DNA of 32,471 nucleotides from Dehalococcoidia bacterium (GCA_009776515.1 WRNP01000006.1:1-32471), one strand, 5' to 3'. Counted from the stretch's first letter, positions 8,346-32,471 are shown. Program-made: numbers and translations. The notes: generated from the letters alone by a model not told the origin.

Positions 8346-10694
8346 TCACTTTAGTTCGATAATGGTTGCTCCGTCACCGCCCTCCTCGGGTGGCGCGGCA
8401 TGAAAAGACTGCACCAAGGGATGACTTGCGGCCTGGTCGCGGATGATGGTGCGCACCGTCCCTGTGCCAAAGCCGTGGATGATACGCACACTTCGCCGCC
8501 AGCCTAAGGCAGCATCGCTCAGATAGCCGTCCAGCAAGGACTCAACCTCCTCAGCGCGTCGCCCGCGCAGGTCAAGCTCGGGCGAGACCTCTTTCAAATT
8601 CAACTGAGGGCGGTGGTGTTCTGGATGTTCCGGTCTGGAAGGAGGGGCTTTGCTGACGGACTCCCGGCTTACCCGGAAGCGGAGGTGCCCGGAGGTAGCC
8701 TCTATCTGACCGGTGCGCTCATTTATTGATATAACATCAGCTGCCACCCCAACCTCTTTCAGCCACACCCTGTCGCCAACGGCTATGGAGACATCGTCCC
8801 CGGGCATGGGGATAGTCTCTATGGCGGAGAAAGTCTTGGCAAGACGCCCTCGGACTGCCTGAGCGGTTCGGCGCGCTTGGCTAACTGCTGCTTCGGAGCG
8901 TTCGCGTTTTAAGGCGGCGGCGGCTAACTTGATCTCTTTTTGCAAGTTGGACATCTCGACGACCAGATTGTCACGGGCATCGTCAATGAGACGCTGCCTA
9001 TCGATGTTAAGCTTCTTAAGTTCGCGCTTAAGTTTGGCTGAGCTCGCGCCCAGTTCTTCTCTTTCACGCTCTAAAGATTGGGTCAGCTCTGCCATACGGG
9101 CTCGCTCAACCCGGAGCCCGGCAAGCAAGGTTTCCATCTCTCTTGCGCCTTGACTTAAGGAGCTACGGGCGCCAGTGATGATGGCGGGTGGCAGGTTGAA
9201 GCTCTCGGCAGTAGCGATGGCATTTGAGCCGCCGGGGGTACCTAGAGTAAGGTGATAGGTGGGACGAAGGGTGTGAGGCTCAAAGTCGAACGAGGCGTTT
9301 TGGAGACCAGGTGTGACGTGGGCGAAAACTTTTAACTCGGTATAATGAGTGGTGGCTGCCCCTAGAATACGGTGATCCAGGAGATGCTGAATGATTGCCC
9401 GGGCCAAAGCTGCTCCCTCCTGAGGATCGGTGCTGGCCCCTAGTTCATCGAACAACACCAAGCTGGCCCCTTTCGCCTCGCGCAGGATGCGACTGATATT
9501 GCTCATATGCCAACCGAAAGTGGAGAGGGTCTCCTGGATGCTCTGCTCGTCGCCGATGTCGGCAAAGATGCCTTCAAATACGGGTAAGCGCGTGCCCAGG
9601 CCGACTGGGATGGGTAGCCCAGCTTGGGTCATCAGGCATAAAAGGCCGATGGTTTTAAGGGCTACGGTCTTGCCGCCAGTGTTGGGGCCGGTGATCATGA
9701 GGATGGCAAAATCCCTACCCAACTCCATGCTGAGCGGCACGGCACTACTGCCTAGCAGGGGATGACGAGCATCAACCAGCCGGATGCAGGGGGAATGCTC
9801 AGCGTCTGGGGCATATACTGTGGCCTCGATAGCTCCCACCCGCTCGGCGTAGCGTGCCTTGGACAGCTCTAGGTCTATAGCCGCTGCAGCTTCAAGCGAG
9901 GTGCTGATTTCGGCACTCAGCTTACCTACGAGCTCGCTGATTTCGGTCAGGATGCGCTCAATCTCACGCCCTTCCTCAATCTGGAGCTCTTTTAAGGCAT
10001 TGCCCATTTCCAGTGTCTGCCACGGCTCGACGAATAAGGTAGCGCCGGTATTGGATACATCGTGTACGATACCAGCCACGTCGCCGCGACGCTCGCTTTT
10101 CACGGACACTACATAGCGTCCCTCGCGTTCGGTAACGATAGGTTCTTGGATGTAGTGTCGCTCGGCATCGGCGGCGATGAATGCTTGGAGTTTGTCCACA
10201 AGGGCGCTACGGGTATCCTGCGCACGGCGGCGGAGGGACACCAGCTTGGATGAGGCATTTGGCAGCAACTCGCCGTTCGGCGATATGGCATGCGCTATGG
10301 CGCTGATCACAGGAGAAAAGTCATCAATGGCTGATGCTCGGACGGCGAGTGAGGGCACCTCTTCTCGATGGGGAACAATCCGGTTCCTAAGGAGACGGAG
10401 CGCTTCCAGGGTGGTGCGCACCTTGGCTAGGGTTTTGGCATCAAGGGGCTTGCCTCTGGCGGCGGCGTGAATTTCGGGACCGATATCCTCTATGCCGGAG
10501 GCACTGAGGGACGGCTCGGCGGCAAAGAGGATGCGCGCTTGGGCTGAGGCAGTGAGGCCGGCCTGAACCACCCTAATATCATCTGAGGGGGAAAGGGCGG
10601 TAGCCAAGTCGCGGCTTAACGAAAACGTGCAACAACCGGCGATGATAGCACGCACGGCCGGGAATTCAAGCAAGGCTAAATCTTTAGCGTCCAA
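8346..10694 (-). CDS. mutS2: MutS2 family ATPase/endonuclease with Smr domain
   Basis: This 782-aa protein has the usual MutS2 length and layout. An N-terminal MutS core (LLEFPAVRAIIAG at the start) leads to the ABC ATPase with Walker A GPNTGGKT (336-343). Walker B is LVLFDELGASTDP, and the H-loop region is AATTHYTELK. A long coiled coil (about 530-620) follows. A C-terminal Smr nuclease domain has LDLRG and HGFGTGTVR. MutS2 proteins act on branched DNA and, in Bacillus, on collided ribosomes. The first codon is TTG. Family alignment supports it, but there is no SD, and the predicted transcription start is only about 2 nt upstream, so the mRNA may be leaderless. Confidence 0.95.
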   Translation of the reverse strand: MDAKDLALLEFPAVRAIIAGCCTFSLSRDLATALSPSDDIRVVQAGLTASAQARILFAAEPSLSASGIEDIGPEIHAAARGKPLDAKTLAKVRTTLEALRLLRNRIVPHREEVPSLAVRASAIDDFSPVISAIAHAISPNGELLPNASSKLVSLRRRAQDTRSALVDKLQAFIAADAERHYIQEPIVTEREGRYVVSVKSERRGDVAGIVHDVSNTGATLFVEPWQTLEMGNALKELQIEEGREIERILTEISELVGKLSAEISTSLEAAAAIDLELSKARYAERVGAIEATVYAPDAEHSPCIRLVDARHPLLGSSAVPLSMELGRDFAILMITGPNTGGKTVALKTIGLLCLMTQAGLPIPVGLGTRLPVFEGIFADIGDEQSIQETLSTFGWHMSNISRILREAKGASLVLFDELGASTDPQEGAALARAIIQHLLDHRILGAATTHYTELKVFAHVTPGLQNASFDFEPHTLRPTYHLTLGTPGGSNAIATAESFNLPPAIITGARSSLSQGAREMETLLAGLRVERARMAELTQSLEREREELGASSAKLKRELKKLNIDRQRLIDDARDNLVVEMSNLQKEIKLAAAALKRERSEAAVSQARRTAQAVRGRLAKTFSAIETIPMPGDDVSIAVGDRVWLKEVGVAADVISINERTGQIEATSGHLRFRVSRESVSKAPPSRPEHPEHHRPQLNLKEVSPELDLRGRRAEEVESLLDGYLSDAALGWRRSVRIIHGFGTGTVRTIIRDQAASHPLVQSFHAAPPEEGGDGATIIELK

Positions 10695-17327: not shown

Positions 17328-19139
17328 ATGACTGACCCAAATATAGCCATGGAAACAGAGAGGCTTATCCTCAGGCCGCTTACCGCCGATGATGCTGAAA
17401 CGGCCTTTTATGGCTGGACTGGCGATGCAGAGGTCGCGCAGTATGTCAGTTGGCTGCCGCACCATACTATTGAGGAAACGATAGAATGGCTGAAAGAAAT
17501 TGAATGGCAACGGGATGACTCAGGTAATATCGCCCCCAGTGACAACTACATCTGGGGCTTTGTCCTAAAAGAAACAGGCCAGCTTTTCGGCTCCGGTGGA
17601 CTGATTTGGGAACCAGGTGCCAAGCTTTATCAGGTCGGCTATAACGTCACGAAATCCCACTGGAATTGCGGCTATACCATTGAAGCGATGAGGGCGATTC
17701 TGCGCTATGCCGCCAACATTCTTGGAATAAAGAGGGTCGCCGGAGGTCACGCCAAAGAGAACATTGCCTCGGCAAAAGTGATTGAGAAGCTGGGATTCAT
17801 TTACGATCGGGATAGGCTTATACCTCACGTCGATGGCACCCGACATTTCGACAGCCGGGAGTATTATTTGGATTTAGAAACCGACGAGGAACGGCGTGCC
17901 AGAATATATCCGATTATATTAAGCGCGTACAATCCCGAATGGCCGCAGTGGTATGCCGAAGAAAAGGAACGGTTGATCTGCCTGACACGCGGTAAAAATA
18001 TCGTCCGCATTAGCCATATGGGCAGCACCGCTGTCCCCGGATTGACGGCTAAACCTACGGTGGATATTCTGTTGGAAATCGCTGAAAGCGCTGACATTGA
18101 GCGCTTGGTTGCCGTCCTGCCTGGCAGCGAATATATTTGTCTGCGGCAGCAGACCATTCCCACGCTTGACCGCGTTATGTTCCTGAAAGGATACACCGAT
18201 ACGGGCTTTGCCGAACGAGTCTTCCACATCCATGTGCGTAGCCCCGGCGACTGGGATGAGTTATATTTTCGAGATTACCTGGCTTCTCATCCCGGGGCGG
18301 CCTCTGAATATGCCGCGTTGAAGCTTAGGTTGCTCAAGGATTATGAACATGACCGAGATGGTTACACGGCCGCGAAGGGTGAATTTATCAAAGAACATAT
18401 GCATAGAGCAAGGCAAGAAGCCAAAGGCGGATTAGCCCAAAACGTCCACCAACTTCATACCACTCCTATGGGCGCGGAGCGGATAAAACGCAACCTGAAT
18501 TTACCCGCCGAGGATGTTGTGGCGTGGTGTAAAGAAACCGTAGTGCAGGCGGACCATATCATTAGGTATGGCAAGAACTGGTATGTCTACGTAGGCGGCG
18601 TAGTTATCACCGTAAACGCGCACAGCTTCGCGGTTATCACGGCGCATAAGATAAACGCTAAGGTGCGGCTTATGCGGGAGTCGGATTATGGGTGCCTGAG
18701 CGAATATTTGTATCAGGCGATATTTGTGCCCGAAGGTGCCGCACCGCCGCCGAGGAGCGTTATCAATGCCCCAGAGATCTTTGTTTACATAAATGGCTTT
18801 GGCACACAAGCAGGTGACTTGGGTGTGATCGCAGAGCAGAACGGGCAGATTGTGGGGGTTGCGTGGACGCGCATTATTCCGGCTTACAGGCATATTAACC
18901 CCGAAACACCGGAACTCGCGGTTTCCGTACTGCCGGAATTTCGGGGTAACGGCATCGGCACGAAACTGATGAAGAAGCTACACAAGGTGTTGCGGGAAAG
19001 CGGCTATAAACAGATCTCGCTTTCCGTGCAAAAGGATAATCCCGCAGTGCGATTTTACCAGCGGCTAGGGTACGAGATGTTTGGGGAGCGGGTTGATCAC
19101 GCAGACCACGAGGACTACATTATGAACAAATATTTGTAG
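17328..19139 (+). CDS. Four-domain fusion: GNAT acetyltransferase, GrpB, DUF3781-like, GNAT acetyltransferase
   Basis: This 603-aa single open frame joins domains normally encoded separately. Residues about 8-180 are a RimJ/RimL-type GNAT (TERLILRPLTADDAE at the start, ASAKVIEKLGFIYD at the end). Residues about 193-365 are a GrpB/UPF0157 domain of the nucleotidyltransferase fold (YNPEWPQWYAEEKERL, HMGSTAVPGLTAKPTVDIL, KGEFIKEH). Residues about 378-445 look like DUF3781 (LHTTPMGAERIKRNL, WCKE, GKNWYVYVGGVVITVNAHS). Residues about 450-603 are a second GNAT (VSVLPEFRGNGIGTKLMKKL, VRFYQRLGYEMFGERV). Cytosolic; no signal or TM. The start has only a weak AAGG. Substrates are unknown; small-molecule or antibiotic modification is possible but not shown. 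The domain calls rest on remembered family patterns. Confidence 0.8.
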   Translation: MTDPNIAMETERLILRPLTADDAETAFYGWTGDAEVAQYVSWLPHHTIEETIEWLKEIEWQRDDSGNIAPSDNYIWGFVLKETGQLFGSGGLIWEPGAKLYQVGYNVTKSHWNCGYTIEAMRAILRYAANILGIKRVAGGHAKENIASAKVIEKLGFIYDRDRLIPHVDGTRHFDSREYYLDLETDEERRARIYPIILSAYNPEWPQWYAEEKERLICLTRGKNIVRISHMGSTAVPGLTAKPTVDILLEIAESADIERLVAVLPGSEYICLRQQTIPTLDRVMFLKGYTDTGFAERVFHIHVRSPGDWDELYFRDYLASHPGAASEYAALKLRLLKDYEHDRDGYTAAKGEFIKEHMHRARQEAKGGLAQNVHQLHTTPMGAERIKRNLNLPAEDVVAWCKETVVQADHIIRYGKNWYVYVGGVVITVNAHSFAVITAHKINAKVRLMRESDYGCLSEYLYQAIFVPEGAAPPPRSVINAPEIFVYINGFGTQAGDLGVIAEQNGQIVGVAWTRIIPAYRHINPETPELAVSVLPEFRGNGIGTKLMKKLHKVLRESGYKQISLSVQKDNPAVRFYQRLGYEMFGERVDHADHEDYIMNKYL

Positions 19140-19629: not shown

Positions 19630-22242
19630 ATGATGAACAAACCTAAGAAAAAATCGAGCCTTGGGTGCAGTAATCTGTTGGCGGAAATAGATCAAGATGC
19701 AAGCCGCGCCATTTCCAAAGCACCTCTAATAGTGGAGAAGCCACAGCTTCATATCCAGACCTCCATTTTCGTCTCCGACGCAGAAGCCGATATACATATC
19801 ACATCTGCCCATATTGATACTGCTAAGGTGGTGCAGCTCTTTCTTGAGCACGAAAAGGAAATCGTTGCCTGCGTTTCTGCAAAATCGACATTAGATGTTG
19901 TAGTTGAAGGTCTTTTAGTCAGGCCAAATAAACTGCCGTTGCTTGTATCGCATAAACCCTTTCCACTGCCACGGGATTTACTCTCAGAGCATGAAAACTC
20001 TCATGATATACGTTTTCGGAATTGTGATGAATTCGCCGTTGAGGAAGTATATGACAGATTGACAGCTTTCGTGTGCCGAGTGGCTGATTATTTGCAGTCG
20101 AATGCCGTGCTTCTGAAATTAAAGGAATTGGTTCATAGCACAGCCCCAATCTTTCTGGCGGCCAAGATAAGCCGTCTTGTGGGGCGTAGCTGCCCGGCCC
20201 TTGATGCTCTGTCCGTTATCACTCTCTCCGATATCGACAGCATTGAGGTGTGGAACGTAAGCCTGCCGGAGGCTACAGAGATCGGCGAATTACTCGAGCG
20301 GCGGCTTAAGCAACTGGTCGTTCCTGCTGCTGCACTAGATGCCCTAACCGCCGATTTGTCTGAGCGCGATAGATGTATCATTGAAAACAGGGGATTAAAG
20401 AATAGCAAAACCCTGGCCGCTATAGGCGAAGAATACGGCATTACCCGCGAAAGGGTTCGCCAAATTAGCGAAAAAATAGTAGCTAAGTTCAAGGCGCCGC
20501 AAGGTGCCAAAAGGGCTCTCATAAGGGCACTCTTCTTCTCTGTAAAAATTCTTAGTGACTGCGAACACTGCATTACCGGCGAAGAACTTAACACCTATGG
20601 GATACCGGGAAAAGCCTTGCTGTTTCTGTCGGATACCATGGGCCGCAAGTACGTAACTCATATTGCCGAAACAGACATGATCGTTTTCTATGGTGATGAC
20701 GGGACGTGCCAGTGGCTGGAGGATATTGAAAAGATGGCCAACTCCCTTCCTCCGGTGCTGTCGGCTGAAGAACAGCAGGACATTGTTGAAGAAACCTCCG
20801 GCTCTCTTAGGAAAATGGGATTCGAAATCTCCAAAGACATCATTAAGGAAATAGTCTTTCATAAGCACGCTACGACCGGAGCGATGTTTGCCACGAAGCC
20901 TCTTTGCCAGACTGAAAAATATGCCATCGTTTTGGAGAAGTTCTTTCCCGATGGGATAAAGGTATATCGGCCTGAAGTATTGGATCATTTCCGGGAAAAA
21001 TACCGCGAGCTTTTCAGTGACAAAAAAATTGCGATTAATGATCATGCCTTAGTTGCCAGAATCATTGACAAGTGCATGCTGATTGACCGCGGAACGTATA
21101 TGCTGTACAAAAAAACCGAACTCCCTGTCGAATTATCCCAACAAATACTGACATTCATTTCGCAGTACCCATACACCATGGTTATGGTCAATGCGATTAT
21201 GCACCGGTTTAAGTCAGAACTGGCAGCCATCGGCATTGAAAACAAATACCATCTGCACGGCACCCTTAAACAGCACTTTGCGGCTCAATTTACCTTTAGG
21301 CGGGATTATGTGGTTAAAGGAGAGGTTACCGATACTCTCTATGCCAATATCGCCGGGTTTGTAGAGTCAAATCCGGAGGGGGTTAGCATTCAGGATTTGC
21401 AAGAGCATTTTCAGGGGATACCAAGCGCTGTGCTGCGTTACGCCTTAACAATTGATGATAACATTCTTTCGGTGTACAGCAATAGATGCATACATAAAAA
21501 ATATATTATTTTCCCAGAACACGATCTTGTTTTGCAGTATTTAAAGGAATACATTGCGCGGGAGCACATTCTTTCTGGTAAGCGTGCCTATCGTATGCTT
21601 TACAGAGAGTTCCCGAGCTTTTTTGCCAAAAACCATATAGGGACCAGTTGGTTTCTGCTTAGCATATTGCGCACGTTTTTTAAGGATGAATTCAGGATTA
21701 ACCGTCCTTACATTATTGACTTAGCCACGGATGCCACCGATGGCTATGCCATGCTCAAAAGCTCGTTCTGGGGCAAAAGCAGTGTTGATATTGCTGACAT
21801 CAAAAAATATGCGAAAGAAAAGCAAATCAAGACAACGGGTCTATTAAAGCTGTTAGATTCGTATAACGATGGGTATTTTATGCTCAATAAAGAGAAGCTT
21901 ATTAGCATTGACGAAGTAGGTTACAGTCAGGACGATTACTTACGAATCGAAGATGTCCTGTTGGAGGCGCTGGGCAATGCAAATTATGCCGAGATAGCCA
22001 AGCTGAACGTGATCGAATCATTGCCAAGAGCCAAGGTTCCTCTTAGCGAATGGTTAATCTATTCCATCATACATAAATACGGCACACGGCTTTCGGCGAT
22101 TACATCGGTACATCAATTTGCGGATGCGGTGCCGCTTGTTATGCGCAGCAACGCTGACCCGAAGTCTGTCAAGGACGAGTATGCCTCTGTTGCGGGATTG
22201 AGGCGAAGGATTCCACGCATGCTCCGGCCTTGGCGCTTTTAG
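19630..22242 (+). CDS. Large orphan protein with sigma-70 region 4 helix-turn-helix
   Basis: This 870-aa protein is of a kind I do not recognise as a characterised family. Residues about 238-285 read LSERDRCIIENRGL, TLAAIGEEYGITRERVRQI, a textbook sigma-70 region 4 DNA-binding HTH. Regions 2 and 3 of a sigma factor are absent. The N-terminal ~230 residues are helical. The ~580 residues after the HTH look like several winged-helix-sized modules (for example LTFISQYPYTMVMVNAIMHRF, FVESNPEGVSIQDLQEHF, LQYLKEYIAREHILSGKRAYRML). No nuclease, helicase or ATPase motif is visible. The last ~16 residues (RRRIPRMLRPWRF) look like an out-of-frame tail; the +1 frame reads GIEAKDSTHAPALALLGLSD to a TGA at 22256, so a frameshift near 22195 is possible. 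Low GC and neighbours suggest acquired DNA. A DNA-binding regulatory or defence-linked role is inference. Confidence 0.75.
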   Translation: MMNKPKKKSSLGCSNLLAEIDQDASRAISKAPLIVEKPQLHIQTSIFVSDAEADIHITSAHIDTAKVVQLFLEHEKEIVACVSAKSTLDVVVEGLLVRPNKLPLLVSHKPFPLPRDLLSEHENSHDIRFRNCDEFAVEEVYDRLTAFVCRVADYLQSNAVLLKLKELVHSTAPIFLAAKISRLVGRSCPALDALSVITLSDIDSIEVWNVSLPEATEIGELLERRLKQLVVPAAALDALTADLSERDRCIIENRGLKNSKTLAAIGEEYGITRERVRQISEKIVAKFKAPQGAKRALIRALFFSVKILSDCEHCITGEELNTYGIPGKALLFLSDTMGRKYVTHIAETDMIVFYGDDGTCQWLEDIEKMANSLPPVLSAEEQQDIVEETSGSLRKMGFEISKDIIKEIVFHKHATTGAMFATKPLCQTEKYAIVLEKFFPDGIKVYRPEVLDHFREKYRELFSDKKIAINDHALVARIIDKCMLIDRGTYMLYKKTELPVELSQQILTFISQYPYTMVMVNAIMHRFKSELAAIGIENKYHLHGTLKQHFAAQFTFRRDYVVKGEVTDTLYANIAGFVESNPEGVSIQDLQEHFQGIPSAVLRYALTIDDNILSVYSNRCIHKKYIIFPEHDLVLQYLKEYIAREHILSGKRAYRMLYREFPSFFAKNHIGTSWFLLSILRTFFKDEFRINRPYIIDLATDATDGYAMLKSSFWGKSSVDIADIKKYAKEKQIKTTGLLKLLDSYNDGYFMLNKEKLISIDEVGYSQDDYLRIEDVLLEALGNANYAEIAKLNVIESLPRAKVPLSEWLIYSIIHKYGTRLSAITSVHQFADAVPLVMRSNADPKSVKDEYASVAGLRRRIPRMLRPWRF

Positions 22243-24964: not shown

Positions 24965-25249
24965 CTAGTGCTGCAGTAGGGTGCACTGGCTGATGGGGAT
25001 GTCGGTGCGCTCGTTTTCGGACTTGCGCACGTACATCTTAAAGGTACTATCTTCGTCTGCGGAATCCAATAGATCGTGACGACGCATTTTGACGAAGCGT
25101 TGCATACTGCGCTTGTTGATGATATCACCCCAGACCTCCATGACGTCGCCGACTTTCATGGTGTCAAGCTGGGTCTTCATCATGAACATGGGTTCGGGGC
25201 AGGTTTTGCCGCGGGTATCCACTGTGCCTACCGTCGTCTGCTCAACCAT
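24965..25249 (-). CDS. TusA-like (SirA family) sulfur-carrier protein
   Basis: This 94-aa TusA-fold protein begins with VDTRGKTCPEPMFMMK, where the cysteine of CPxP is the persulfide- or perselenide-carrying residue. The sequence continues with the usual VGDVMEVWGD and SMQRFVKMRRHDLL. The C-terminal 25 residues extend beyond the normal domain. The track ORF starts at a TTG at 25267, but the predicted transcription start is near 25270, so that codon has no leader. ATG 25249 has GAGG about 9 nt upstream and is preferred. It is transcribed divergently from the yedE operon, from a promoter whose spacer is filled by a palindrome. It probably hands sulfur or selenium to or from that system. Confidence 0.85.
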   Translation of the reverse strand: MVEQTTVGTVDTRGKTCPEPMFMMKTQLDTMKVGDVMEVWGDIINKRSMQRFVKMRRHDLLDSADEDSTFKMYVRKSENERTDIPISQCTLLQH

Positions 25250-25276
25250 TTGGCTTGCCTCGCTCAACTATCTATA

Positions 25277-25333: not shown

Positions 25334-25363
25334 TTGACAACCAGGCGCGCATATACATATACT
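25334..25363 (+). promoter_or_regulatory. Promoter of the yedE operon
   Basis: A perfect TTGACA (25334-25339), an 18-nt spacer and TATACT (25358-25363). The predicted leader is about 110 nt. Confidence 0.7.
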
Positions 25364-25481: not shown

Positions 25482-26621
25482 TTGAAAATCCTGTTTTCCC
25501 GCAAGGCTCTTATTTTGTATGCCGGCTTGGCTTTTGGGGTTCTTGCTTCGCTTCTGGTAAAGTGGGGCAACCCCGCCAACATGGGCTTTTGTAGCCTGTG
25601 CTTTTTGCGCGACATCTCTGGTGGCTTGAAACTCCAAACCACGGCTACAGTTCAGTATCTTAGACCGGAGATCATCGGGCTGGTTCTGGGGTCTACGGGG
25701 GCGGCGCTTCTTTTTCGCGAGTTCCGTCCGCGCGGCGGCGCAGCACCCTTGGTACGCTTTGTCCTGGGCTTTTTCATCGCCGTCGGCGCCCTCATCTTCT
25801 TAGGTTGCCCATGGCGCGCCGTCATTAGACTGGGTGGCGGCGACCTATCAGCCCTCATCGGTATTGCCGGGCTAATCGTTGGTGTAGCGGCTGGTATCAT
25901 CTTACTCCGCCGCGGCTTCAACTTAGGCCGATCCAACCGCACTTATGCCGTTGCCGGATGGATCATGCCCGTCATTTTTATAGCCTTGCTTATATTCTTG
26001 GTGGCAGGGGCTTCGTTCATTGCCGAGAGCGCCTCCGGGCCTGGCTCGCTTCACCCTGCGATTTGGATTTCCCTGGTGGTCGGGCTGTTCATCGGCTTTG
26101 TTGCCCAGCGGGTGCGCTTCTGCACTGTGGGCGGTTGGCGTGACCTGATCATGGTCAAGGATGCCTACCTGTTTTTAGGCCTGGTGGGCTTGTTCGTGGG
26201 CGTGCTGGCCACCAACTACATCGTTGGCTTTTTCGGCGATGGCGGCGTGGTCACTTCCACCGGAACGACAGTTGCCTATCACTGGGGTTTTACGAGTCAG
26301 CCCATTGCTCTGCCTGGAGTGGATGCGACAGGGGCTATTCGTTGGACTGATTTCTTGTGGGGTGCCGGCGGTTTGGCCTTATTGGGTCTCGCAGCCGTAC
26401 TGGCGGGTGGTTGCCCCATGCGCCAGCTCATCATGTCTGGCGAAGGCGATACCGATGCCGGCATGACGGTGGTCGGTATGCTCGTTGGCAGTGCGGTGGC
26501 CATGAATTTCGGCATCGCTTCCAGTGCTACTGGTCCCGGAGCGAATGGTCCTTGGGCGCTGGGGATAGGGCTGGTCGTTTGTTTGGTTCTGGGCTTTACT
26601 CTGCGCGAACGGGCGGCATAG
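25482..26621 (+). CDS. yedE: YedE-family (Sulf_transp) selenium/sulfur membrane transporter
   Basis: This 379-aa polytopic membrane protein has about nine to ten hydrophobic helices. It has two pseudo-repeats of the Sulf_transp/YeeE-YedE fold with the conserved cysteines GFCSLCFLRD, FLGCPWRAVIRLGGGD, VRFCTVGGWRD and GGCPMRQLIMSGEGD. YeeE/YedE proteins import thiosulfate or a reduced S/Se species through cysteine relays. The long YedE subtype with CPWR and GGD is the one linked to selenium metabolism. The track starts at 25446, upstream of the SD. TTG 25482, 7 nt after AGGAGGG, is clearly the start (MKILFSRKAL). It is the first gene of the operon. Confidence 0.9.
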   Translation: MKILFSRKALILYAGLAFGVLASLLVKWGNPANMGFCSLCFLRDISGGLKLQTTATVQYLRPEIIGLVLGSTGAALLFREFRPRGGAAPLVRFVLGFFIAVGALIFLGCPWRAVIRLGGGDLSALIGIAGLIVGVAAGIILLRRGFNLGRSNRTYAVAGWIMPVIFIALLIFLVAGASFIAESASGPGSLHPAIWISLVVGLFIGFVAQRVRFCTVGGWRDLIMVKDAYLFLGLVGLFVGVLATNYIVGFFGDGGVVTSTGTTVAYHWGFTSQPIALPGVDATGAIRWTDFLWGAGGLALLGLAAVLAGGCPMRQLIMSGEGDTDAGMTVVGMLVGSAVAMNFGIASSATGPGANGPWALGIGLVVCLVLGFTLRERAA

Positions 26622-26653
26622 AGTCACGGAAAATATCTTGAGGAGTTGTTATC

Positions 26654-27190
26654 ATGGCCGACTCTCCTAAGGGCACTAAATTTGTCGGCGACGGCATCGT
26701 CATCTTTCATGACGTGGCCGGGGCCATGAAGGGCGAAAAAGCGGTGAGGGCAGCGGGCTACGAGGTAAAACTTGTTTCCCCGCCCCCCCAACTGCGCATG
26801 GGTTGCGATCTGGCGCTGGAAATAAACCTGGTGGAAGAACAGGGCATTGAGCGTCTTTTCCAGGAAAAGGAAGTGCCTTTTGTCCAGGTCTTGCCGCTTA
26901 CTAAGGGCGCGTCGGTGCTGTGCGAAGTTATCAAGGTAACCGATTTCGGCCGGTGGTATATGGTGAAGGCTGGTAACATGAAGCTCTCTTTCGAAAAAGA
27001 GACCGGTCTGGTGGTCAATGTCTCTGGCGGAGGGTGCCCCGATATCCCCTATCTCAATGCCGAGATGGTAGATAAGACACTTAGCCAGACACCTCAGCCC
27101 CGCGATATCGGTTATACCCTTTGTGCCACCATGCTGCAACGGGCATATGAAGAAGCCGTCCGCCTATTTGAGGGAGGTAGCCTCTCATGA
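26654..27190 (+). CDS. DUF3343 protein (putative Se/S carrier) with C-terminal extension
   Basis: This 178-aa soluble protein has DUF3343 at about residues 14-85 (VIFHDVAGAMKGEKAVRAAGYEVKLVSPPPQLRMGC). This small domain accompanies selenium-metabolism genes and is thought to carry Se or S on its cysteine. A second ~90-residue part follows, with VLCEVIKVTDFGRWYMVKAG, GGGCPDIPYLNAEMVDKTL and RDIGYTLCATML. Ordinary DUF3343 proteins are 75-90 aa, so this is an extended form; its cysteines may form a second carrier or metal site (inference). GAGGAG lies about 9 nt before the ATG. Its end overlaps the kinase-fold gene by ATGA. Confidence 0.8.
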   Translation: MADSPKGTKFVGDGIVIFHDVAGAMKGEKAVRAAGYEVKLVSPPPQLRMGCDLALEINLVEEQGIERLFQEKEVPFVQVLPLTKGASVLCEVIKVTDFGRWYMVKAGNMKLSFEKETGLVVNVSGGGCPDIPYLNAEMVDKTLSQTPQPRDIGYTLCATMLQRAYEEAVRLFEGGSLS

Positions 27191-28077
27191 TGATCCTTTT
27201 TGGAACGCTACCCTACAATGATTTCCCTCTGACTTTTGGCCAGGTGAGCCGCGAGGGTGATTACCTTAAGGCCGATGGCCGGGAGTTTTCGCGCACCCAA
27301 GGTACCGGGGCCATGATCTCGGCGGCACTGGCGATTGCTACCCACTTCAAAGAAGAACCGCCATACGTGCTGGTGGCGGGAGACATCGGAGGGGGCAATG
27401 GGACGCGCGATATCTATCAGTATCTTACTGAACGGGTGGGGGAACTTGCGCCTGATTTCATTGCCATGCACTATAGTCTGCCTATCATGGCTCTCATGCG
27501 GAAGTTTATAGAAGCGGTGCAGAGATGCGAAAAGAGGCCTTTTCTGATTGCTGACGCCGGGGCCATGTATGCGGCCAAGGGCGCCGGATTATCGGGGGAG
27601 TTTGATATCTTTACGCCGGATCCCTCGGAAATGGCTTTCCTTGCCGACCCGCAGGCAACTCACCCGGCTTATATTGCCAAGCACCTCTTTGAGTGCGATG
27701 CTTCGCTGGTGCCGCAGCAGATTGCGGAGGCTTTCCGGTCGGGGAGCGCTGCTAAATTGCTATTGGTGAAGGGCAAGACCGACTATGTAGCACAGGGTGG
27801 AGAGATCCTCCATGCCGTAAACGAGCCGGACGTGCCTCATTTGGAACCCATCGGCGGTACGGGAGATACCATCACCGGACTTGTATCGGGGCTGGTGTAT
27901 GCCGGACTGGCACCTAAGGATGCGGCGGTCTTTGCCTGCCGCACCAACCGCACCGCCGGCAAGCTGGCAGAGCCTAATCCGGCTACCAAGGTCAAAGAGA
28001 TCATTGATCAATTCCCGCGCGTGGCCAAGGAATATTATTGTTCCTGGAGCGGAGTCTGTTATATGGATGACAAATAG
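27187..28077 (+). CDS. Ribokinase-superfamily protein resembling NAD(P)H-hydrate dehydratase (YjeF C-domain type)
   Basis: This 296-aa protein has the fold signatures of ATP/ADP-dependent NAD(P)H-hydrate dehydratases. These are VLVAGDIGGGNGTRDIY near the start, FLIADAGAM (central strand), FTPDPSEMAFLA, LLLVKGKTDYVAQGG, and the catalytic/anion-hole motif GGTGDTITGLVSGLVYAG, where the Asp is the general base. A C-terminal segment has two cysteines, YYCSWSGVCYMDD. There is no N-terminal epimerase half. It is translationally coupled to the DUF3343 gene and sits inside the Se/S operon, so it may phosphorylate or repair a metabolite used there rather than be general housekeeping. That is inference from context. 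SD GGGAGG is about 9 nt upstream. Confidence 0.75.
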   Translation: MMILFGTLPYNDFPLTFGQVSREGDYLKADGREFSRTQGTGAMISAALAIATHFKEEPPYVLVAGDIGGGNGTRDIYQYLTERVGELAPDFIAMHYSLPIMALMRKFIEAVQRCEKRPFLIADAGAMYAAKGAGLSGEFDIFTPDPSEMAFLADPQATHPAYIAKHLFECDASLVPQQIAEAFRSGSAAKLLLVKGKTDYVAQGGEILHAVNEPDVPHLEPIGGTGDTITGLVSGLVYAGLAPKDAAVFACRTNRTAGKLAEPNPATKVKEIIDQFPRVAKEYYCSWSGVCYMDDK

Positions 28078-28100
28078 CCGGATGTAATGAAGCGCGCGAC

Positions 28101-28143
28101 TCCCGTGATCTCATGGGAATAAACACTCGGGGGCTCGAAGCCC
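28101..28143 (+). repeat. Two tandem hairpins between the kinase-fold gene and tusA
   Basis: TCCCGTG-ATCT-CATGGGA (28101-28118) and GGGCT-CGA-AGCCC (28131-28143) lie in the 81-nt gap before the tusA SD. Neither is followed by a U-tract, so processing or attenuation is more likely than termination. Confidence 0.45.
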
Positions 28144-28158
28144 TAATAAGGAGAAAAA

Positions 28159-28374
28159 ATGTTTGAATTAGATTGCCGTGGTTTGTCTTGCCCTATCCCG
28201 CTAGTCAAGCTACAGAAGGCCATAGATAGTCATCCTAAAGAGCCAATCCTTATGAAAATTGACTCCGAGACTGCCCAGGAGCATGCCACCAGGCTGGCTG
28301 AGGGTAAGGGATATGCTGTTAAGGCGACTCGTCAGGGCGATGATATTGCCTTGGAGCTTAGGCCCGGCAAGTAA
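28159..28374 (+). CDS. TusA family sulfurtransferase
   Basis: This 71-aa minimal TusA protein has LDCRGLSCPIPLVKLQKAI at the N-terminus, where the CPxP cysteine carries the sulfane sulfur or selenium. The regular beta-alpha pattern ends in GDDIALELRPGK. AAGGAG lies 6 nt before the ATG. It is a second, single-domain TusA in the cluster, beside the divergent TusA-like protein and the TusA half of YedF, so the locus encodes three CPxP carriers. It is a likely relay between the YedE channel and acceptors; the acceptor is unknown. Confidence 0.9.
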   Translation: MFELDCRGLSCPIPLVKLQKAIDSHPKEPILMKIDSETAQEHATRLAEGKGYAVKATRQGDDIALELRPGK

Positions 28375-28438
28375 AGCATCTAGCCAACGTCCGAGGTACG
28401 GGGCTTGGCGCTGATATCAGAAGCAGGAAAAGAGACAG

Positions 28439-28487
28439 CCACGCCCCGTTGCGATTTGCTGAGGCTGAGGATCGCGATGGGGCGTGG
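28439..28487 (+). repeat. 17-bp intercistronic hairpin before yedF
   Basis: CCACGCCCCGTTGCGAT (28439-28455) and ATCGCGATGGGGCGTGG (28471-28487) pair at all 17 positions with two G-U wobbles. They enclose a 15-nt loop, TTGCTGAGGCTGAGG. It ends 13 nt before the yedF SD. No U-tract follows. Confidence 0.6.
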
Positions 28488-28514
28488 GCAGATAGAGACG
28501 GGAAGGAGCAGGTT

Positions 28515-29117
28515 ATGATCAAAGAACTTGATTGCCGCAAGCAGGGGTGCCCTCAACCGATCATTGACACCAAAAGGGCGCTTGAGGCGGGCAACGATGA
28601 ATTAAGGGTGGTCGTTGATAGCATTGTCAGCCGCGATAACGTGCGTCGTTTTGCCTCAAGTCAGGGCCACAAAGTGGAGATAGAGGATAAGGGGGGCGGG
28701 CTTTACCACTTGAATATCACGCGCAACCCTGAGGCGGTGGTAAGGCCGGCAGGGGCTGCTCCGGAGGCGGGCAACGTGGCCGGGGGCGTGGTGGTGTTCA
28801 TCACTACTGATAAGCTGGGCGAGGGTGACGAGCGCCTGGGCGCTATCTTGATGAAAGCTTTCCTTAATACCCTCCATGATTCCGAGCCCAAGCCGGCGAT
28901 GATCATGTTTATCAATAACGGCGTAAGGCTTACCACTGAGGGCTCAGAGATGCTGGACAGTTTAGAGGCCCTGACTCACGACGGGGTGCAGATTATGTCC
29001 TGCGGTACCTGCCTTACCTATTACGATATCATGAATAAACTCAAGATCGGAATCGTTGGCAACATGTATGATATTGTAAACGTCATGCTTGAGGCGGAAA
29101 AGGTCATCAAGATCTAG
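28515..29117 (+). CDS. yedF: Selenium-metabolism protein YedF (TusA domain + DsrE-like domain)
   Basis: This 200-aa cytosolic protein has an N-terminal TusA-type domain (LDCRKQGCPQPIIDTKRAL, with the CPxP cysteine) to about residue 75. After a linker rich in Ala and Gly, a DsrE/F-like domain follows (VVVFITTDKLGEGDERLGAILMKAF, MIMFINNGVRL, ILSCGTCL-like QIMSCGTCLTYY). This two-domain layout defines YedF, which co-occurs with YedE and selenium utilisation. The cysteines CGTC in the second half are candidates for the acceptor site. The track ORF starts at 28449 inside the hairpin. ATG 28515, 6 nt after GGAAGGAG, is the start. Last gene of the operon. Confidence 0.92.
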   Translation: MIKELDCRKQGCPQPIIDTKRALEAGNDELRVVVDSIVSRDNVRRFASSQGHKVEIEDKGGGLYHLNITRNPEAVVRPAGAAPEAGNVAGGVVVFITTDKLGEGDERLGAILMKAFLNTLHDSEPKPAMIMFINNGVRLTTEGSEMLDSLEALTHDGVQIMSCGTCLTYYDIMNKLKIGIVGNMYDIVNVMLEAEKVIKI

Positions 29118-29817: not shown

Positions 29818-32471
29818 ATGTTGCGCAATAGTATGGCATCCGGGCTATCGGTCATCGGTAAATATCTTACCAACTTGGTCTTGGTCCTCTCCCTTCTCCT
29901 GTCATCATCCTCTGGCTTAACATCAGCTCTCATCCGAGCCGAGGGCGAAGCGAACTCCTCCCAAAACCAAGAAATTCTCCCCGAGTTATCCGAAGCGGAT
30001 CCCAATGGTGAACCGAACAATAACTCGGAAGATGCGGAACGGGGACTGGGTAATAGTATCTCCGGTTTCTTATGGGTGGACGGCAACGGTTCCCTCTCCA
30101 CCGATTGGGACGGCCTCTATAACGGCAGTGAATTACCCCTCTCCGGTTATCCCGTCTATCTATACGCAGCGGATGATCTAAGTACCGCCCTGGGTGAGAC
30201 CTACTCCGGTGCGGACGGCACCTATCTCTTCGGTAATATTGAACCCGGAGAGTATGCCTTGGGGCTCAAGTCCGCCACTGTCGCCGGATATGAGTACCTC
30301 TTACCCATGGCTCTAACCTCGGATAACAAGTTTGCCATCGACTGGGCCAGTGATCCCCTTATGGCCTATACCGACATACTCACCCTGGCAGATGACGAGG
30401 CTGTCTCTGGCATCAACGCTGGCATGAGACTCCCTATGGGCATTGTGCGTGCGGCGGATACCTCCCTGGCTGCCATTTGGGCAGCCAATCTCAATAGCCT
30501 TGTCTCCCTTGATGGCTACACTTGGATCGTGGTCGAGAAGAAGACCGTAGGGGGCTTGAACTGCGTCTTGCTGCTCCGGGCGGGTAGTACGAGCTTAGGT
30601 GTTAGCTTTGGATCATCGAATACCTATGAGGGCTCCAACCTGCAGTCCTGGATGACAACCACCTATAATAGCCTAAAAACCATCAAATCCGTCGCGGTAG
30701 TACCCTCTCTGGGGCTTTTCTCATCCCCCAGCGCTATCTCAGAGCCTACGGCCATACCGGCCAGCAGCGTGCCGTCAGGCAAGGACATCCTCTTTGCACT
30801 GAGTTACCAGGATGTATACCGGTGGAATGGTAATAAAATTTCACCGCTGACAACTCCGCTTAACAATTACTTTAGCAATACCGCCAGGCACTGGCTGCGT
30901 ACTTCTGCCGGCGGCTCCGTACATGGGTGGCTTTCTTACTCTTCTAATCCCGCGTCAAGTACTATTGATGCGGGTCTTAATCCCAATGCTACCGGCGCCT
31001 ATGCCGTCCCGGCTGTATGGATCAGCACCACCGCTTTACCGCAGGTGACCGTGCATTATGTTGATGACAGCGACACCATGATCAAGACGCCGAGTGCGGC
31101 ATATCCCCTTGCCCCTGGTTCACCTTTCGCCCTTTCTCCTGCCGAGATTCCCGATATCCCGCTATATGATTACAGCGGCTGGAAGATCGGTCTGGGAGGG
31201 ACCGTCCAAAGCAGCAGCACTCCCGTGAGCATCGCCAGTGTCGACGCGGACACCGATATCTATTTGATATACCAGTCGGTTCCCTACACTGGCACCATTG
31301 ACCTCTCTGAGACGACGACCGGCGGCACGGGTTATACCATCACCGGCGTAACTGCGGGCGATGAATACAGTAGCGGTGCGTATTCAGGAGGCGTAGTGCC
31401 AGCGCCTTCGGGGAAACTCATCTTTGATAATGGTGCTGACGGCTTGGCCTACCGCATTATCCAATCGGGAAATCTTGCGAACCCCACAGATGGACTAAAG
31501 AACGGAACCTCAATTTTTAACGATATCATCATTCTGGATGGGGTGAGTGTCACGCTGATTATAGATGACATCGATCTCAGCGGAAACATTGATGTGAGGG
31601 GCACAGCGGACTTGACGCTGCTACTGGCCAACTCAGGAGACTATGGAATTGTTGATGCTAGCTATATACGTGGCAGTATCTTCGTGATTAATGACGGCCT
31701 GACTGAAGCTTATCTTGCCATCGACAGTGCTATTGTTTCTGGAAGCAGTGATGGCTCCCTTACGGTTACGGCCACCGTCCTCCAAAACGCGGCCGTCGGT
31801 GGTGCCAGTGGCCAATCTGCCGGTCTCATCACCATACTCGGCGGCACAGTTACTGCCACGACTGATCATGGCAACGCCGGCGGAGGCGCGGCGGCCATCG
31901 GTGGTGCTTCTGGGGGTAGCGGTGGGGTCATAAACATCTCCGGCGGCACGGTCATTGCCAATAGCACTAATGGTGCCGCTATCGGTGGCGGTAATGGAAC
32001 CGCCAATGGGGGGATCGTTACCATCAACGGGGATGCCCATGTCAACGCCCATGCCGGCCTGGGTGCGGGTATTGGCACCGGTGCTGGCGGCGACGGCGCG
32101 ACCATCGTCGTCAGTGGCAATGCCGTAGTTATTACCGTCAGTGATGAAGGCGCCGGCATCGGCGGTTACCTCACCACCGGCTCGATCACCATCAATGGTG
32201 ATGCCGAGGTCACAGCCATTGGTGGCACCGGAGCCGGCATCGGTGGCGGCTTCGCCGTTGGCACTGGTGGTAGCGGTGGGGACATCACCATTGGCGGTAA
32301 TGCTACCGTCGAAGCCAGCGGCCTCTACGGCGGAGCCGGTATCGGTGGTGGTGTGGGCATCGACATCGACATCGGTATGAGCAATACCGGTGGCTCAGGT
32401 GGCACTATTATCATCGAAGACGGTGCCAAGGTCACGTCCGCCGGCGTCGTCGGGGCCGGTATCGGCGGCGG
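29818..32471 (+). CDS. Large secreted surface protein with glycine-rich beta-helix repeats (partial, 3' end outside)
   Basis: An open frame of 884 codons reaches the window end without a stop and is therefore absent from the ORF track. ATG 29818 has AAGGGGGG about 6 nt upstream. A signal peptide is visible (hydrophobic LTNLVLVLSLLLSSSSGLTSA), then an acidic linker. An SdrD-B/prealbumin-like domain (about 82-165: ISGFLWVDGNG, GADGTYLFGNIEPGEYALGL) is followed by a DUF6273-like domain (about 228-402: GYTWIVVEKK, NLQSWMTTTYNSL, AVPAVWIS). A MucBP/InlB-like segment (about 410-485: VTVHYVDDSD, YSGWKIG) comes next. From about 690 there are 27-40-aa repeats with GAGIGGG and GG-ITI-G-A-V units, probably a right-handed beta-helix. 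The role is probably cell-surface adhesion or an S-layer-like function; the anchoring signal lies outside the window. Confidence 0.88.
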   Translation, partial: MLRNSMASGLSVIGKYLTNLVLVLSLLLSSSSGLTSALIRAEGEANSSQNQEILPELSEADPNGEPNNNSEDAERGLGNSISGFLWVDGNGSLSTDWDGLYNGSELPLSGYPVYLYAADDLSTALGETYSGADGTYLFGNIEPGEYALGLKSATVAGYEYLLPMALTSDNKFAIDWASDPLMAYTDILTLADDEAVSGINAGMRLPMGIVRAADTSLAAIWAANLNSLVSLDGYTWIVVEKKTVGGLNCVLLLRAGSTSLGVSFGSSNTYEGSNLQSWMTTTYNSLKTIKSVAVVPSLGLFSSPSAISEPTAIPASSVPSGKDILFALSYQDVYRWNGNKISPLTTPLNNYFSNTARHWLRTSAGGSVHGWLSYSSNPASSTIDAGLNPNATGAYAVPAVWISTTALPQVTVHYVDDSDTMIKTPSAAYPLAPGSPFALSPAEIPDIPLYDYSGWKIGLGGTVQSSSTPVSIASVDADTDIYLIYQSVPYTGTIDLSETTTGGTGYTITGVTAGDEYSSGAYSGGVVPAPSGKLIFDNGADGLAYRIIQSGNLANPTDGLKNGTSIFNDIIILDGVSVTLIIDDIDLSGNIDVRGTADLTLLLANSGDYGIVDASYIRGSIFVINDGLTEAYLAIDSAIVSGSSDGSLTVTATVLQNAAVGGASGQSAGLITILGGTVTATTDHGNAGGGAAAIGGASGGSGGVINISGGTVIANSTNGAAIGGGNGTANGGIVTINGDAHVNAHAGLGAGIGTGAGGDGATIVVSGNAVVITVSDEGAGIGGYLTTGSITINGDAEVTAIGGTGAGIGGGFAVGTGGSGGDITIGGNATVEASGLYGGAGIGGGVGIDIDIGMSNTGGSGGTIIIEDGAKVTSAGVVGAGIGG
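31894..32471 (+). repeat. In-frame AGIGGG-type repeat array
   Basis: The core ATCGGYGGYG (reading IGG) recurs at 31897, 31981, 32071 (as ATTGGC), 32158, 32239, 32341 and 32461. Spacings are 84, 90, 87, 81, 102 and 120 nt, all multiples of three. It continues past the window. Confidence 0.75.

Follow-up and report, generated by a model that had tools for sequence, protein, structure and literature searches.

A conserved operon with a YedE-type membrane protein, an extended DUF3343 protein and a ribokinase-fold protein as a candidate selenium acquisition and delivery line

The uptake of selenium by bacteria and its hand-over to SelD are an open question. No specific selenium transporter was known in any organism according to a 2024 study, and for all members of the putative selenium transporter family TIGR04112 selenium transport is unproven (PMC11097638). 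Likewise, a 2026 review described the in vivo selenium form and the donor system of SelD as incompletely known (PMC13188914). YedE, YedF and the small DUF3343 proteins were tied to selenium by Lin et al. in 2015 (PMC5322559), and the YedE relative YeeE passes thiosulfate along a series of cysteines, for which the CPxP protein YeeD is essential (PMC11073785). Here we describe an operon that bears on this question, located in a 32,471-nucleotide (nt) stretch of DNA from a small, anaerobic Dehalococcoidia bacterium (GCA_009776515.1, WRNP01000006.1:1-32471). This stretch, referred to as the window, represents contig C6 of a 1.34 Mb assembly of 99 contigs that is 91.5% complete, and the named relatives of the genome are Dehalococcoidia (Chloroflexota). 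The operon is probably a selenium acquisition and delivery line that feeds SelD.

The operon, its selenium-type proteins and its conserved order

Five open reading frames (ORFs) lie in a row on the + strand at 25482-29117, encoding YedE, an extended DUF3343 protein (DUF3343ext), a kinase, TusA and YedF. A sequence-only reading of the window had described these genes as an operon with a divergent TusA gene and three CPxP carrier proteins, and the ORFs, the family matches and the CPIP, CPQP and CPEP motifs bear this out. The features are as follows (lengths in amino acids, aa).

24965..25267, - strand: TusA-like protein, 100 aa, CPEP, divergently transcribed (PF01206, 51.5 bits)
25305-25277, - strand: promoter-like site of its own for the divergent TusA gene
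25334..25363, + strand: operon promoter-like site TTGACA-N18-TATACT (11/12 matches; consensus match only)
25482..26621, + strand: YedE-type membrane protein, 379 aa, TTG start (TIGR04112, 406.8 bits, cut-off 200)
26654..27190, + strand: extended DUF3343 (selenium/sulfur carrier) protein, 178 aa (PF11823, residues 14-79 only)
27035..27037, + strand: TGC codon of Cys128 (SGGGCPDIP) in DUF3343ext; ~10 related genomes have TGA as the paralogue codon
27187..28077, + strand: ribokinase-fold protein, 296 aa (PF01256), starting 4 nt inside the end of the DUF3343ext gene
28159..28374, + strand: TusA-like carrier, 71 aa, CPIP (PF01206, 49.2 bits)
28515..29117, + strand: YedF, 200 aa, with a TusA domain (CPQP) and a DsrE-like domain (CGTC) (TIGR03527)

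Successive genes of the operon are spaced by 32, -4, 81 and 140 nt. The single promoter assumed in the sequence-only reading is thus matched by a promoter-like site, and the short gaps or overlaps hold for the first three junctions, but with 140 nt before YedF the last gap is not short. An RNA leader was sought in the 118-nt 5' region, and the only Rfam matches in the window were tRNAs. The divergent CPEP TusA gene is kept at the same place in close relatives.

The selenium reading of the operon, which is strongly supported overall, draws first on the families of its proteins: YedE and YedF both exceed the cut-offs of selenium equivalogs. YedE scored 406.8 bits against the TIGR04112 equivalog cut-off of 200, whereas it reached 32.3 bits or less with the models for the thiosulfate transporter TsuA, far under their cut-offs. 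Five of its cysteines (Cys37, 40, 109, 214 and 311) were invariant in an alignment with 20 relatives. YedF scored 220.4 bits against the TIGR03527 cut-off of 110, and both its CPQP and its CGTC motif were seen.

The genome itself decodes selenocysteine (Sec), as indicated by one block on contig C1 with tRNA-Sec, selD, selA and selB. In selD the catalytic position is encoded by an in-frame TGA. An in-frame TGA is also present in the gene for the formate dehydrogenase alpha subunit (Fdh-alpha; L184, contig C15 4451-6445, - strand), which is a likely consumer of the selenium. A genome without selD and with linkage to dissimilatory sulfur genes had been named as the outcome that would point to sulfur; the four Sec genes are present and a search of the genome for dsrA found none, and a dissimilatory sulfur role of the operon was rejected on this ground. 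Of the genes that had been proposed for a search, selD, selA and selB were thus found and ybbB was not. Since ybbB is absent, a selenouridine role was rejected as well, and the selenium is likely used for Sec and not for selenouridine.

Conservation of the gene order was assessed by scanning a genome collection with an alignment of the kinase, which gave 418 relatives. Loci were counted among the best 80 of these, using only loci with enough flanking room (denominators 74, 66, 78 and 59). The gene immediately 5' of the kinase was DUF3343ext in all 74 loci that could be tested, YedE lay upstream in 60/66 and TusA nearby in 64/78, and selD (18/59) and YedF (15/59) were found within 2.5 kb downstream. 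The distance between DUF3343ext and the kinase was at most 60 nt for 111 of 114 kinases. Carriers of the order include Chloroflexota, Moorella and other Bacillota, Syntrophaceae and other deltaproteobacterial lineages, and furthermore Acidobacteria, Actinomycetota, Calditrichaceae and Nostoc. A lack of conserved order would have spoken against a unit; the order recurs across several phyla and the unit is conserved far beyond chance. In three loci (L059, L062 and L064) selA on the opposite strand is followed by YedE-DUF3343ext-kinase-TusA-selD-selB, so that one cassette links selD directly with the candidate importer, the carriers and the kinase. Versions in culturable Moorella make the idea testable, since M. 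stamsii and M. mulderi carry YedE-DUF3343ext-kinase-TusA. A gene of the LysR family was present near 27 of the 80 loci, in almost every case on the other strand, and the sole member tested exceeded the cut-off of NF040786, the selenium metabolism-associated LysR family. In addition, YedE is fused to DUF3343ext in L079, and the kinase to TusA in L094, L118 and L126.

These data bear on two rival explanations. Conceivably, the operon could be a sulfur line. Zero-valent sulfur or thiosulfate would then enter through YedE, and persulfide sulfur would reach Fe-S, tRNA or cofactor assembly by way of DUF3343ext, TusA and YedF, with selenium genes nearby through shared thiol chemistry. Relatives of YedE indeed import thiosulfate (PMC11073785) or zero-valent sulfur (PMC10812762), DUF3343 also occurs in selD-less genomes (PMC5322559) and Nostoc has operon genes without selD. 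However, the YedE scores on either side of the two sets of cut-offs, the direct operon linkage to selD, selA, selB and LysR_Sec_metab, the in-frame TGA for Sec in a paralogue of the carrier and the absence of dsrA argue against a sulfur line, which we consider unlikely. Alternatively, excess selenide could be scavenged or expelled, with the kinase making a disposable selenium metabolite, and export by YedE was raised as an option by Lin et al. (PMC5322559). Linkage to the biosynthetic genes selD, selA and selB is difficult to reconcile with such detoxification, as are the increase of Methanococcus yedE mRNA by 5.3 log2 under selenium starvation (PMC11097638) and the directional import by YedE1E2 (PMC10812762), and we judge it quite improbable.

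Further loci touch on these families. On contig C39 (L006, ~2672-1463, - strand) a gene for a YeeE-family membrane protein has an in-frame TGA at 1804 (PGT-TGA-VTGS), with a stable hairpin just 3' of it, and adjoins SufB/SufC-like genes and a lipoprotein rhodanese; it probably belongs to the known YeeE selenoprotein family (PF04143). In Nostoc (L079 7367-9891 and L114 ~8834-9891) a YedE-DUF3343ext fusion, that of L079, and the kinase occur with no detectable selD, and a plasmid copy in Nostoc NIES-2107 appears truncated and lies beside transposase-like genes.

DUF3343ext, its kinase and a paralogue with an in-frame TGA

The extension noted for the DUF3343 protein in the sequence-only reading was confirmed in an alignment of 49 homologues. 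Its PF11823 domain (55 bits, gathering score 25) spans residues 14-79 only, and the remaining ~95 aa, although conserved, had no Pfam match above cut-off and no NCBIfam family. With 178 aa and a second domain, DUF3343ext is thus not a stand-alone small DUF3343 protein of 80-100 aa. Three cysteines are kept in the alignment: Cys51 (RxGCDLA), the invariant cysteine of the DUF3343 domain, and the likewise invariant Cys128 (SGGGCPDIP) and Cys157 (TLCA) of the C-terminal domain. A fold search of the PDB with a model of the protein (predicted local distance difference test score, pLDDT, 87) returned nothing at E<=0.001. Naming the C-terminal domain from the PDB was therefore given up, as sequence and fold searches were both empty at this threshold, and weak matches to microcompartment shell proteins were discarded.

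The kinase matched PF01256 with 43.5 bits in a profile search. Its model (pLDDT 93.8) is ribokinase-like and, together with a GxGD motif, places the protein in the ribokinase-like superfamily, nearest to NAD(P)H-hydrate dehydratases, ThiD, ThiM and PdxK; the best Foldseek match was the NAD(P)H-hydrate dehydratase TM0922 (3rss; E 6e-8, ~15% identity). With all four it shares the fold and the GTGD anion-hole motif, but it differs from them in an invariant FTPDxxE motif and in its near-obligate partner DUF3343ext. Assignment as an NAD(P)H-hydrate dehydratase was rejected (41.6 bits against the TIGR00196, yjeF_cterm, cut-off of 129.85), and so was assignment as a thiazole kinase, for which the score was far under the cut-off. 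Because the GGTGD and FTPDxxE motifs are present in 44 of 44 aligned kinases, it is plausible that the protein is catalytically competent. A C-terminal tail of the CxWSGxC type occurs in 25 of the 44.

A second DUF3343ext-kinase pair is present in the same genome (L007, contig C22, 8342-5782, - strand), followed by two half-length YedE genes. This arrangement is common to the window's family, and some relatives have a third copy (L181-L183). Divergent from the second pair, at L007 8395-10292 (+ strand), are genes for a GcvH-like lipoyl carrier and a dihydrolipoyl-dehydrogenase-like protein; the same divergent pair occurs in L073, L074, L075, L076 and L108 and recalls the lipoyl carriers of sulfur metabolism.

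Both DUF3343ext copies of the window genome have Cys at the position of Cys128. In relatives, the paralogue next to the second kinase has a TGA exactly at this position of SGGGCPDIP. The sample comprises 12 distinct sequences from about ten genomes, nearly all of them metagenome-assembled. All 12 share a loop at one set position, closed by a 4-5 bp stem. This loop, which covers nt 22-26 when counting starts at the U of UGA, reads GGUCU in 10 sequences and AGUUU in 2, whereas GGUCU was found there in 0 of 91 Cys homologues. The place and loop of this candidate hairpin resemble the selenocysteine insertion sequence (SECIS) of E. coli fdhF. When RNAalifold was run on the 12 SECIS candidates, it preferred an alternative 6-bp pairing without covariation; the SECIS claim is therefore based on the constant place of the loop, on the complementary bases of the stem and on the difference from the Cys homologues. 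In a tree, the Sec sequences did not all group together, and the window's family had its Cys versions in a single nested clade; Cys may consequently be the derived state in this family.

It could be argued that these TGA codons are stops or mark decayed genes, in which case the operon would still be a selenium operon. The selenoprotein claim is indeed drawn from sequence, and from assemblies of the kind just mentioned. However, 12 different sequences place the TGA at one invariant Cys, the frame is kept on both sides, the kinase follows directly downstream, the hairpin loop has the distribution described above, and the carriers possess Sec machinery and a TGA-containing SelD. We therefore regard stops or decay as very improbable and the TGA-containing paralogue as a candidate new selenoprotein family. 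In L067/L093 a frame change or a stop interrupts DUF3343ext, and not a TGA at the Cys.

A proposed selenium relay

The proposal of a selenium line is based on the protein families, the gene order, the fusions, the linkage to selD, selA, selB and LysR genes and the Sec machinery of the genome, and also on the Cys/Sec pair with its SECIS-like hairpin in the paralogue. By analogy with YeeE/YeeD and YedE1E2, selenium in a reduced form would cross the membrane into the cell along the cysteines of YedE, and the cytoplasmic CPxP/CGxC carriers TusA and YedF would receive it. DUF3343ext would then ferry the selenium toward SelD as a Cys-bound (or Sec-bound) perselenide. The overlapping and almost invariant DUF3343ext-kinase gene pair suggests that the two proteins form a complex in which the kinase, as the ATP-using partner, powers a loading or release step. 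We infer the selenium transport itself, the species that enters, the direction of the relay, the delivery to SelD and the reaction and substrate of the kinase. The membrane import-and-relay line for selenium or sulfur of the sequence-only reading is thus supported on its selenium side, while import and relay would follow from the analogy. More tentatively, DUF3343ext and the kinase might together form an enzyme that loads selenium at the expense of ATP and is the dedicated donor so far missing for SelD, with the Sec paralogue as a new selenoprotein family; this is possible but doubtful. If the Sec paralogue is real, selenium would be handled by a selenium-containing carrier, the synthesis of which depends on its own product.

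Several observations weigh against a selenium line. A yedE deletion in Methanococcus had no clear phenotype, and every tested selenium source was still used (PMC11097638); zero-valent sulfur is taken up by the YedE1E2 proteins, which are relatives (PMC10812762); and action of the kinase on a selenium compound is conjectural. In the window genome selD, selA and selB are on a contig other than that of the operon, and in most loci selD does not adjoin. In favour of such a line, selD was present within the class in 22 of 23 kinase-positive genomes versus 186 of 271 kinase-negative ones (Fisher p 0.004), but since it is widespread in the class anyway (208/294), co-occurrence alone is weak. Among further kinase carriers selD was likewise found in 69 of 77, some of these handles being one genome reached twice. 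Kinase carriers without selD are draft genomes and two Nostoc, and the latter have DUF3343ext and the kinase, one of them also YedE, with no detectable selD.

Elsewhere in the window, three + strand frames stand out: 17328-19139 encodes a 603-aa protein with an uncommon combination of two GNAT acetyltransferase domains, GrpB and DUF3781; 19630-22242 encodes an 870-aa protein with a sigma-70 region 4 helix-turn-helix (~residues 242-286) as sole Pfam match; and 29818-32469, which runs off the window end, is a large open frame (884 aa or more) whose similarity to beta-helix repeats is weak.

Comparison with known systems

In the sequence-only reading, the combination of a kinase-fold gene with an extended DUF3343 was not one known to be described, and our literature search agrees: it found no description of a near-obligate kinase partner, a two-domain DUF3343 or a Sec form of DUF3343. 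The text of the 2026 review, which covers more than 110 prokaryotic selenoprotein families, contains neither DUF3343 nor PF11823 (PMC13188914), so that a Sec-containing DUF3343, if true, would add a family absent from it.

The genes of Lin et al. (PMC5322559) share with the window operon TIGR04112, TIGR03527, the DUF3343 domain, a SirA/TusA-like partner and proximity to selD and LysR_Se. However, their DUF3343 proteins are 80-100 aa long, whereas that of the window has 178 aa and a second domain; the only kinase in their text is PSTK, whereas the window operon includes a partner kinase; and their clusters have a Sec lyase-like gene, which is not among the recurrent neighbours of window-type loci. 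YeeE-YeeD (TsuA-TsuB, PMC11073785) likewise combines a channel with conserved cysteines and an essential cytoplasmic CPxP TusA-like partner, the two being fused in some species. In contrast, the window YedE belongs to another subfamily, would act on selenium, and is accompanied by the kinase and DUF3343ext as extra components. Finally, the YedE1E2 importer (PMC10812762) is a split YedE pair like that on contig C22, but it is coupled to a persulfide dioxygenase, whereas the window-type system pairs with DUF3343ext and the kinase.

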